The position numbers were made by a program, and so were the translations under genes. Under the pieces are notes generated by a model. It did no database searches and had not been told where the DNA came from. It was given only the letters and a program-made list of their open reading frames with translations. This document shows, piece by piece, positions 37,150 through 41,220 of a DNA stretch of 64,000 bases. Within the stretch, counting starts at the first letter, position 1. Every line of letters begins with the position of its first letter. This DNA comes from Pezizomycotina sp. ARF18 (lineage: Eukaryota; Ascomycota): positions 1 to 64,000 of the forward strand of contig AZLU01000110.1 in assembly GCA_002224055.1 (NCBI GenBank), in the 5' to 3' direction.

Positions 37150-38382
37150 TTACAAGTTTCCACGCTCAGCCTGTTCCCTCTCGATCGCCTCAAAGAGAGA
37201 CTTGAAGTTACCTGCACCGAATCCGCTGAAGTTATTCCTCTGGATGATCTCGATGAAGACCGTCGGCCTGTCCATCAGCGGCTTGGTGAACAGCTGCAAC
37301 AGGTAACCGCCCTCGTCAAAGTCGATGAGGATGTTCAGGCCCTGCAGCGTGTCAAAGTCCTCGTTGAGCTTCAGGCCTTGCTTGGCGAGGCGCTCCCGCA
37401 TGGCGGTGTAGTAGGTATCCGGAACGGTGATGAACTCGATACCCTAGCCTTCATCGCGCGGACGGTATCGATGACCGACTTCGTTCGCAGGGCGATGTGC
37501 TGGACTCCCGGTCCGTTGTAAAAGTCGACGTACTCTTCGATCTGCGACTTCTTCTTTCCGGCGCGGGCTCGTTCAGCGGCATCTTGACGACATCGTTGGG
37601 GGAGGCCATGACGACGGACCGCAGGGCGGAGTAGTCGGTGCAGATATCCTTATCGTCAACGGACCAGAAGCGGTGGAAGCCCAATACGTTCTCGTAGTAC
37701 TCGCACATCTTGTTCATCTGGTCCCAATCCTGGTTGCCGACGCAGTGGTCGATGGCTTCCAGCTCGACTCCCGGCAGGACGTTGTTGAGGGGATCTTGAG
37801 TCGTCGTGGCGCGGAAACCGGGCATGAAAGTGCCGGTGTATTCCGAACGGTCGATGAGGGTGTGCGTGGTGTCACCGTAAGTTGTTATCGTCGCAACGAG
37901 GACACGGCCTTCGCCCTTATCGCCAATGTACTGCGGTGCGCGACAGCACCGGCACCGTTCGCTACGGCTTTTCGTATACACTTTAACATCGTCGACTTCA
38001 AAGGAAACGTCCTTTACGGCGTCACCGTGTGTCTGGATGTGCTTGTGCATCTCATCCAGCAGCTTCCTCTCCTCATCGGTGGCGTTGCGGGTATCCGATG
38101 TCCGCAGCGGCGAAGTCAAGACGAAGCGGACCTTTCCGTTGGAACAACGTGCGAGGCGAACAGGCGGGAACCTGTCTCGAGGCCGGAGTACGCTTCGTGC
38201 TTGAAACCCATGCGGGTTACGTAGAAAGAGGCGGCCTGTTTGGCGTTGCCTACCCACCAGGTGATGTGGTCGTAGCCGCGGTAATTGGCGCCGCCGCCTG
38301 CGGATTGGTCACCAGTGACCGTCTGGCCATCGGCCGTCAGGATGGTAGGTTGCTGTGGAAGCGGTTGTGCTGAGGGTGACAT
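37150..38382 (-). CDS. hppD: 4-hydroxyphenylpyruvate dioxygenase
   Basis: Iron enzyme that converts 4-hydroxyphenylpyruvate to homogentisate, one step before homogentisate dioxygenase. It starts [20 protein letters not shown], then [40 protein letters not shown] and [20 protein letters not shown]. Later blocks are [36 protein letters not shown] and [20 protein letters not shown]. All three iron ligands are visible: His in AIDHCVG, His in GVQHIALRT and Glu in VFIEIIQR. The C-terminal block [20 protein letters not shown] leads to [18 protein letters not shown] and the stop at 37150. No intron is needed; length of about 410 residues fits. Frame changes near 38130, 37960, 37575 and 37445 fit single lost bases. 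It lies about 10.5 kb from fumarylacetoacetase and is divergent from the TTC36-like gene. Confidence 0.93.
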
Positions 38383-40469
38383 TTTTGCGATTGGATTTTG
38401 GTTATAGGGTTTATAAGTTTTCGTGCTCTCTTTCTAGGTCGATTCGGTAGGTAATGTATACTCTAGACTGATGAACGACAAATCCCTCACTTCCTTTTGC
38501 TCCAGAAGAACGATAGTATGGACGGTGATGGTGATGGTGATGATGATGATAGTGATGATAGTGGACGAAGAAGGTAAACTGGGAGGAATAACCCAGAATA
38601 TATAGGCTCTCTAATGTCTCGAAGTGAAGGAGGTTGCTTGAGTCGGCTCTATCGGCTGAGGGAATCGCTTATGACCAGTTTTGCATCAACAAAACGGCAT
38701 GCAACCCTAAAAAGAGGTCCTACATTGTATGGCGTTCAAACTTTCTACGCCCCCAATTCAGGCAAAGGATAAACCGAACACCTGAGTGGGCTACCACGAA
38801 CTCTCAAAAATATGTGTGAGAAGGTTTTAAGGATGGCTCCGGAAAAGACATCGGGCGTCATACCCTTCTTCCCCAAGTCTAATGCATAAAATCAATTCGG
38901 TGGGTTGGAAAAGGCGTGCAAGGTTACTGTCGGCTTAAGTCGGTATTAGACGGAAAGCGGCGTTTTAGCCCTAGGAGTTCCAGCTGCACGATTCCCTCCC
39001 TGTTCCCTGTTATCCGACCCATTGAGCCGCAAAACTTTCAACAAATCCTTTCTAATCTCTATCACTCTTCCTTTGTATAGAAAAAAAAAAAAAAGAAAAA
39101 AAAAAAAAGAAAAAAGAAATCAGTGCACGATTTCCTCCCATGCTCAGCTTGCTTTTTCGATCGTCCGAGTGAAAAGATAAGGAAAATTTTCCTTCCACGG
39201 GGAATCTTTGAAGTTGAGGACCTTGCAGAATCCACGAATCATTGCGGTTTTGTTCCTGACCTGGACGATGGCGTGATACAGGTAAGCTTCGTCCGATCTC
39301 GCATCTAAAAATCCGCTGACGGCGCGGATACGAATTCGAATTGACCAATAACCGGCCGTGCATTTTTAACAATTGAAAGGCTTTAGGGCCAAAATTCCAG
39401 AGCTAGGTCCTGTATTACCATCTGTACAAGGCTTTGAAAGGCCTCGGAGATCTTTTGCCAGAGGAGTGGTTTAGTTGAGCGAGTCCTTTCAAGGGAAAGG
39501 CTTTGACATGCTTGAAAGGTATCACCAGATCTAGAATTAAGCTTTTTGCAGACAAAGCAGCGGAATATTATTATTGTCAGCTGTTGGTCTAATTATTGAG
39601 ATATTTGTGCTACACTGCTAGATATAGTCAATAGCAATATATTTTGTCTATAAGTTTCACATCGAAATTCTTGAAAAGAAGGGAACAATCCTCTTCCTCG
39701 CCTCTCTCAGTTCCTGCTCCTCACATAACAACAGGCTTCTTCTACACTCAGCTTGAAAGAACTCGAATTGCTATGATCGCTTACCGCCACTTGCAGTCTT
39801 TTGCCTTTAAGGAAAAAGAAAAATATTTGACAATGACCTACTTACCCGTGTTTCCCTTTTTCCTTCTTCATCCAATGCCGTTCTCGCCGTTTAGCTTTCT
39901 GTACAGTTAGATCATGTGGCTCCAACATCCAAAAGGAAAATGTCTTCGTAAGGGATCTCCTACGTAACTCTCCCAAATTGAAACGGGTAGTGGAGGTTAC
40001 GTCGGTTATACTCGGCCGTGTCTAGCCGAAACACCCACTCGCCAATACCGATAATCTGCGAAGGCCCATTGATTCCCACACCTCAGCTAAAAAACTTTCT
40101 TTCTTTCATATGCGTTCAATTCCACGATCTTCGGAGCAGGTCCTTAGGACATACAGTGCAGTGTGCAGTTGCATTTTGCCTATCGTTCGCTCTTTACGGT
40201 TCGCCCGGGGTTTCAGAATAAGGATTAGCTTTTTGGGGATTCAAATCAGGGTTTAGCAAGTTTACCTGAATTGATAAGGCTCAGAGGGCAAAAACAGGAA
40301 GGATGAGGATATATATAAATTATATATCCTACACGGGAGACGTCAAAGCAATTCGATCCCCATCGAAGCACCAGTACACTTAACGACTGCAATTCTACCA
40401 TACCATCAAAGAAAGACCTATCTCTACTAACTCAAGCAGCAACAAGTTTATCCACAAGTAATTTACAAG
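38383..40469. promoter_or_regulatory. Divergent spacer between HPPD and TTC36-like genes
   Basis: A 2.1 kb spacer that must hold both promoters. It contains a GATGGT/GATGAT tract near 38521-38561, interrupted A-rich sequence near 39079-39117, and an AT-rich stretch near 40308-40327. No open frame here resembles a known protein. A shared regulatory element is possible, but none was identified. Confidence 0.4.
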
Positions 40470-41220
40470 ATGGTCCAAAAGGAGTGCCTCCTCTCGACGA
40501 ACGATTCCGCCGTCCTCGAGCAGCTCTTCGACCCTGAATCCGCCCCGACCCCATCCCCCATAGTCATCGACGCCTCCCTACCTTCCTTCCCGCACATCTC
40601 CTCCCACCAATCCTTCACCCAGCTCCGTTCCCTCGGAATCCTCGCTATCCGCGCCGCAGAAGCCAACGACGTCCTAAAAGCCCTCTCATTACTCTCCCAG
40701 GCCATCGCCCAAGAACCCAAATACGCATCCGCGTACAACAACCGCGCGCAGGTATACCGCATGCAAGCCGCCATGCAGGACCCTGCATCCCGTGACAACG
40801 TCTTCTATCGTCGACGGTGCTGAATGCGTACAAAGATCTCACCAAGGCCATCGACCTCGCTGCGCCGCCTAGTCCCACGGCGGCGATAAGTCCGCAGCAG
40901 GCAAAGCTGCTCGCGAACGCGCACACGCAGCGCGCGACGCTGCTGTACACTACGTCGAAGTACCTACAAACTGCTAAGGATAACGGCCAGATTAAATGGC
41001 GTTCAAGAAGTTACCTAGCGAGTTCAAGGCGTGGGACGATATTAATATCTGGGAGGAGACCGCGAGCAGGGATTTCTTCTGGGGCGGGCGGTACGGGAAC
41101 GAAGTTGCAAAGGCGATGGCGGTACATACGAACCCTTACGCGAAGCTTTGCGGTAGTATCGTCAAGGAGGCGATGAAGAAGGAGATGGGAGAGGGTCTCA
41201 GACAGGCTGGCGTCTACTGA
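40470..41220 (+). CDS. TTC36-like tetratricopeptide protein
   Basis: Homologue of animal TTC36, a small TPR protein. It starts MVQKECLLSTNDSAVLEQLF, matching the N-terminal NDxAVLxxxFNP element of TTC36. The TPR helices follow: LRSLGILAIRAAEANDVLKA, LSLLSQAIAQEPKYASAYNN (then RAQVYRMQ), LNAYKDLTKAIDLA and LLANAHTQRATLLYTTSKYL. The end, DFFWGGRYGNEVAKAMAVHT then NPYAKLCGSIVKEAMKKEMG, matches the family's NPYAxLCxxxxxExM signature. Frame changes near 40805 and 40995 fit lost bases; no intron is seen. In mice, TTC36 is reported to bind 4-hydroxyphenylpyruvate dioxygenase and protect it from ubiquitination, and its loss raises tyrosine. Here it is divergent from the gene for that same enzyme. Confidence 0.85.

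Follow-up and report, generated by a model that had tools for sequence, protein, structure and literature searches.

In most sequenced ascomycetes, the gene hmgX adjoins hppD, the gene for 4-hydroxyphenylpyruvate dioxygenase (HPPD), and in numerous cases the two genes seem to share one promoter that works in both directions (Keller et al. 2011, PMC3203155). The hmgX gene is intronless and 771 bp long. Deletion of hmgX in Aspergillus fumigatus, where all genes of the tyrosine-degradation cluster are induced by tyrosine, leads to accumulation of p-hydroxyphenylpyruvate (pHPP); no homogentisate (HGA) is made, Tat and HmgA activities persist, and no HGA was detected in crude extracts of an hmgX/hmgA double mutant (PMC3203155). 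The corresponding deletion in Penicillium marneffei abolishes growth on tyrosine as a carbon source and formation of pyomelanin (PMC4374905), and the tyrosine cluster including hmgX has been sought in 214 fungal genomes (Greene et al. 2014, PMC3914699). Here we analyze a divergent pair of hppD and what is almost certainly hmgX in Pezizomycotina sp. ARF18, located within the first 64,000 nucleotides of contig AZLU01000110.1 (assembly GCA_002224055.1; this whole stretch is called the window below). Sequence comparisons suggest that mammalian TTC36 and HmgX, an orphan protein on which fungal HPPD depends, are the same HPPD partner.

Mammalian TTC36, also known as HBP21, binds HPD, the mammalian HPPD, through the C-terminal VOC2 domain of the enzyme. 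It lowers ubiquitylation of HPD by keeping STK33 off T382, the residue at the start of a TNME motif, and the T382 route runs through STK33 and PELI1, with T382 lying in a TXXE motif (PMC6753076). In mice, knockout of Ttc36 lowers HPD and causes tyrosinaemia (PMC6753076); the original prediction for this locus started from the reported binding of HPD by TTC36 and the high tyrosine that follows loss of TTC36. One open-licence paper names TTC36 only as the human equivalent of CG14105 in flies. Among the open-licence PMC papers searched, we found none that names HmgX and TTC36 together. Automatic family databases could already join the two.

The hppD gene occupies 37150..38382 on the minus strand of the window (ATG at 38382, stop codon TAA at 37150) and contains about five frame changes. 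A second gene, encoding a tetratricopeptide repeat (TPR) protein of about 250 amino acids, lies on the plus strand at 40470..41220 (ATG at 40470, TGA at 41218-41220), and the two genes diverge from a shared spacer of 2087 bp (38383..40469). Orientation, coordinates and spacer length all bear out the original prediction of an HPPD gene and a TTC36-like TPR gene standing head to head across 2.1 kb, and the pieces of HPPD match known HPPD structures along their length. For the latter comparison, the minus-strand pieces of HPPD were concatenated, with an X marking each frame change; the resulting protein scores 586 bits against PDB 8jbw and 406 bits against human HPD (5ec3), and its middle piece gives a Pfam Glyoxalase match of 27.8 bits. 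Genome searches, which cover the 46.4 Mb assembly of 408 contigs, returned a single match for this middle piece. The N-terminal half of HPPD contains 12 residues that are absent from human HPD, a similar insertion being present in 8jbw. In our alignment the last residue of the fungal enzyme (...RGNL-stop) corresponds to L381 of human HPD, so the fungal protein stops short of T382 and the TNME motif. Five open reading frames (ORFs) in the spacer gave no match in a Pfam search.

The TPR gene shares several traits with the published hmgX. It adjoins and diverges from hppD, it requires no intron, its length is 751 bp as compared with 771 bp, it belongs to the cluster, and the neighbouring HPPD carries an insertion of the kind reported as a 13-amino-acid feature specific to ascomycetes (PMC3203155). 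From position, length and lack of introns, we infer that it is the hmgX orthologue, the A. fumigatus HmgX having been compared by description only. The locus as a whole is a fungal tyrosine-degradation cluster, since hmgA, maiA and fahA lie approximately 10-17 kb away. As in the A. fumigatus arrangement (Afu2g04200/Afu2g04210; PMC3203155, PMC3914699), hppD diverges from a gene that needs no intron and measures about 770 bp, hmgA, maiA and fahA are close by, and HPPD carries an insertion relative to the human enzyme. Neither the gene pair nor the cluster is unusual among ascomycetes, and the pairing was already reported in 2011 under the name hmgX; the new part is the link between HmgX and TTC36. 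A genome search with the first piece of the TPR gene gave one significant match and a second at E 0.22; together with the single match for the middle HPPD piece and the three further tyrosine-pathway genes in the window, this weighs against a pairing by chance. A structure model of this first piece had a mean predicted local distance difference test (pLDDT) score of 53.6 and contained only helices, and it was not used further.

The TTC36 label given by the original prediction is the valuable part of that first reading. The human sequence used in our comparisons, which we take to be TTC36, was set down after the window had been seen and is provisional, and for this reason we treat the resemblance as a strong lead and not as a database-verified result. 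Alignment by blastp between the TPR protein and this TTC36 sequence runs from the N- to the C-terminus, with 67 of 242 positions identical (67.4 bits). The local alignment score is 157, as compared with a maximum of 67 among 5000 shuffles of TTC36; when the protein was taken in parts, the observed score was reached by 2 of 5000 shuffles for the N-terminal part and by none of 5000 for either the TPR core or the C-terminal NPYAxLC segment. By phmmer the match to the provisional TTC36 sequence scores 49.3 bits, with E 4.7e-12 when scaled to a search the size of the PDB, while the best score of the same query among 177,635 PDB sequences, a comparison set of PDB chains and not a proteome, is 21.7 bits (27.6 bits for the first piece alone). 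The score against HOP TPR1 is 6.5 bits. Segments common to both proteins include an N-terminal ND.AVL...F.P and a C-terminal NPYA.LC.

The fungal protein and the provisional TTC36 sequence are colinear in three parts, the N-terminal segment, the TPR core and the C-terminal NPYAxLC segment, and both have HPPD as a partner. They differ in that the fungal protein exceeds TTC36 by about 60 amino acids and has inserts behind the first repeat and ahead of the C-terminal segment, in that the fungal gene adjoins the HPPD gene, and in that fungal HPPD lacks T382. The two proteins also agree in their clamp residues. Only one of five residues of the HOP-type Hsp70/90 clamp (K-N-N-K-R) is kept in HmgX and one of five in TTC36, counts that use the provisional TTC36 sequence, with the HOP sequence and the clamp positions equally provisional, and in which the alignment around the fourth position is loose. 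As judged from these residues, the poorly kept clamp argues for client binding and not for a co-chaperone that recognizes EEVD.

Taken together, we consider it probable that the divergent pair of this cluster encodes HPPD and its dedicated partner, with HmgX as the fungal TTC36. HmgX would bind HPPD directly, by analogy with the VOC2-mediated binding of mammalian TTC36, and would keep HPPD folded, assembled and present, such that HPPD activity would be lost when HmgX is missing. The block in the A. fumigatus hmgX mutant can be placed at HPPD because pHPP accumulates and HGA is missing while Tat and HmgA remain active. Since the fungal enzyme ends at the residue aligned to L381, the STK33-PELI1 step has no substrate site here, and shielding of T382 from STK33 and PELI1 may be a later animal addition. 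This suggests that the ancestral mechanism cannot have been the one published for mammals, while the dependence of HPPD on a partner can be ancient. The idea in the original prediction of an ancient stabilising partnership, with a role for TTC36 in the tyrosine pathway outside animals, holds up in one respect and is not supported in another: the hmgX deletions of A. fumigatus and P. marneffei tie a TTC36-like gene to the tyrosine pathway, whereas protection from ubiquitin in its mammalian form does not carry over to an HPPD that ends before T382.

Another possibility is that HmgX and TTC36 protect HPPD solely by blocking an E3 ligase, which in fungi would act through a different phosphosite. 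The mammalian data are in line with such a role, with polyubiquitylation of HPD lowered by TTC36 and with the loss of HPD after TTC36 depletion reversed by MG-132 (PMC6753076). However, the fungal enzyme ends before the known phosphosite and its TNME motif, and the crude extracts of the A. fumigatus double mutant yielded no detectable HGA (PMC3203155). We consider protection by ligase blocking alone unlikely. The likelihoods we attach to this and the other alternatives discussed below are not all mutually exclusive.

The remaining part of the preferred reading, in which HmgX is the dedicated HPPD partner, concerns regulation: tyrosine would switch on hppD and hmgX together through sites for the Aro80-like regulator HmgR in the shared spacer. 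HmgR has been reported to be 40% identical to Aro80p (PMC3203155), and because of this identity we scanned the spacer for CCG-N7 arrays; Aro80 sites in the yeast ARO9, ARO10 and ARO80 promoters consist of four copies of CCG spaced by 7 bp (PMC7947893, PMC9142190). Two elements were found. An Aro80-type element, CCG-N7-CCG-N7-CCG-N7-CCT, lies nearer hppD at 38921..38953 on the minus strand, about 540 bp upstream of that gene. The other lies at 39995..40028 on the plus strand, about 440 bp upstream of hmgX, and reads GGTTAC-GTCGG-N6-TCGG followed by CCG-N7-CCG, forming a CGG-N7-CGG/CCG-N7-CCG palindrome at 40003-40028. Both are led by GGTTAC(T)GTCGG. As in yeast, these are CCG-N7 arrays in the promoter region of genes for aromatic amino acid catabolism, yet here one array has three exact CCG units and a CCT, and the other is a two-pair palindrome.

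The spacer contains four CCG-N7-CCG pairs, as compared with a mean of 0.41 in dinucleotide shuffles, and 3 of 2000 shuffles gave at least as many. With the hits already known, two more tests were set up: a CCG-N7 triple occurred in 8 of 2000 shuffles and the palindrome in none of 2000. Over the whole window there are 37 CCG-N7-CCG pairs as compared with 23 in shuffles, a count reached in 1 of 100 shuffles, with many of the pairs in coding sequence; the informative signal is the local concentration within the spacer. A genome search with the core shared by the two elements returned the two spacer sites only, using a pattern written from those same two sites. We regard the elements as candidate HmgR operators, a suggestion drawn from their sequence. 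It could also be that hppD and hmgX are paired for shared transcription only and that HmgX makes no contact with HPPD, acting for example on substrate supply or on another enzyme. The common spacer with its Aro80-type elements and the tyrosine induction of all A. fumigatus cluster genes would fit such an arrangement, but the hmgX mutant phenotype, with pHPP up, no HGA, and Tat and HmgA present, puts the block at HPPD itself (PMC3203155), and we find this explanation very unlikely.

A number of points weigh against HmgX being the fungal TTC36 and a direct partner of HPPD under HmgR control. Concerning regulation, the degenerate Aro80 consensus WRCCGWSATTTRCCG gave no signal when up to three mismatches were allowed (19 matches as compared with 21.8 expected). 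An exact CCG-N7 triple is also present at 9403-9425, away from the cluster; the maiA-fahA spacer has one imperfect triple only (at 24913, with one mismatch), and no CCG-N7 array was found directly upstream of hmgA. A spacer of 2.1 kb is long for one shared promoter. In addition, none of at least 33 genome matches to Zn_clus (Zn2Cys6) at E <= 0.01 falls on contig C110, which carries the window, so hmgR may be located elsewhere or may have been missed. Concerning function, the parts of the literature covered give no measure of HPPD protein for an hmgX mutant, and the hmgX and hpdA deletions of P. marneffei differ in macrophages, where HmgX is maybe only partly required (PMC4374905). HPPD dependence on HmgX may be conditional in view of this difference.

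Concerning homology, besides the provisional nature of the TTC36 sequence, the N-terminal part on its own falls short of significance in phmmer (E about 150), the C-terminal part on its own is weak (E 0.027), and frame changes blur both HPPD and the TPR protein. The 2011 account describes HmgX as lacking conserved domains and as without a homologue in human (by tblastn), C. elegans or Dictyostelium (PMC3203155). These observations could mean that HmgX is a generic TPR protein restricted to ascomycetes which was recruited beside hppD, with a convergent likeness to TTC36 and a link to HPPD that arose twice. TPR matches are promiscuous, and in the TPR gene the individual Pfam TPR matches are weak and under gathering cut-offs (best E 1e-4), while an NCBIfam search gave four weak matches far under the cut-offs. 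Nevertheless, the match to the provisional TTC36 sequence extends past the repeats into the N- and C-terminal segments and scores well over any PDB chain, and it would be a coincidence for two unrelated proteins to act on the same enzyme. An ascomycete-only origin thus seems to us quite improbable, and we retain the reading of HmgX as the fungal TTC36.

Candidate relatives in other organisms were also considered. A contig scan found 212 bacterial candidates; the best 80 of the 212 match within query residues 27-167, none of them at the N-terminal segment, and they were rejected as TTC36 relatives. Among 87 loci compared, the N-terminal motif occurs in the window's own gene (L005) only, and NPYA.L downstream of AYNNRA in one frame occurs in none of the 87. 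The repeat motif ASAYNNRA is common to many cyanobacterial and Methylobacterium TPR proteins (L008-L087), without TTC36-type end motifs in one frame. A search for TTC36-like relatives in one bacterial phylum found none in 398 genomes at E <= 1e-11, with 20 listed genomes and at most six candidates scored in each; having had no positive control, this empty result is uninformative. Three scans of viral contigs found no relative.

The frame changes in both genes of the pair, which the original prediction did not mention, might mean that this fungus carries hppD and hmgX as decayed pseudogenes. Reading in three frames gave about five changes in HPPD and two in the TPR gene, the latter near 40800-40823 and 40980-41010. 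However, HPPD residues are well conserved despite the changes, and conserved genes elsewhere in the assembly are broken in the same manner. The HSP70 gene on contig C49 (53036-54818) consists of seven abutting or overlapping pieces, with six frame changes in 1783 nt and no room for introns; four of the six fit one missing base and two fit two missing bases or one added. Genes for CCT also appear as abutting or overlapping pieces in different frames, and hmgA as overlapping pieces in two frames. Because HSP70, CCT genes and hmgA are broken likewise, the frame changes in hppD and hmgX look like small assembly errors and not decay. We read both genes as intact and reject the pseudogene explanation, to which we give hardly any credence. 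A frame switch seems to occur in fahA too, and the SNF2-type gene next to hmgX is fragmented; introns could explain both. As the HSP70 gene shows, broken gene models may be frequent in this assembly.

The rest of the cluster lies at lower coordinates of the window than hppD. Homogentisate 1,2-dioxygenase is encoded by hmgA at approximately 20280..21820 on the minus strand, with broken frames. A gene with a GST domain at approximately 22700..23400, also on the minus strand, is presumably maiA; its context and residues typical of the family point to maleylacetoacetate isomerase. Fumarylacetoacetase is encoded by fahA on the plus strand at approximately 25230..26618, with both N- and C-terminal domains and a frame change or intron inside. 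Between these three genes and hppD are a receptor-like gene (7tm_1 and Git3 over cut-off) and a kelch-like gene (under Pfam cut-offs). The locus differs from the A. fumigatus cluster in that hmgA, maiA and fahA are set apart by these two genes and in its long spacer. It also differs from clusters of that type in that hmgR was not seen here; hmgR is present in some clusters but not all and is not defining for hmgX.

Other features of the neighbourhood include pieces of an amino acid permease near hmgA (17418-18516, minus strand), which could be an importer for the cluster. Pieces of HIRAN and SNF2 domains are found in several frames at 42884-45099 on the minus strand, next to hmgX. A short in-frame tandem repeat of VVNGT units is present at 28419-28466, in a minus-strand ORF (28205-28543) with no Pfam match.

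More tentatively, and with less confidence than in the reading of HmgX as the fungal TTC36, we put forward the possibility that HmgX and TTC36 form one HPPD-specific assembly-factor family that predates the split between fungi and animals. Such a family could act in folding, oligomer assembly or Fe(II) loading, perhaps with participation of the NPYAxLC cysteine. Tyrosinaemia upon loss of TTC36 might then be partly a failure of HPD maturation, with degradation through T382 as a consequence.

If the homology is true, it speaks against the proposal made in 2011 that HmgX docks at the insertion of ascomycete HPPD, because human HPD, which does not have this insertion, still binds TTC36 and does so via the other domain, VOC2. 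HmgX was described in 2011 as essential for fungal HPPD, without domains or a human relative, and TTC36 has been explained through a mammalian kinase and ligase. Joining HmgX and TTC36 would open fungal genetics to the study of human TTC36 and would give HmgX a fold and a partner.

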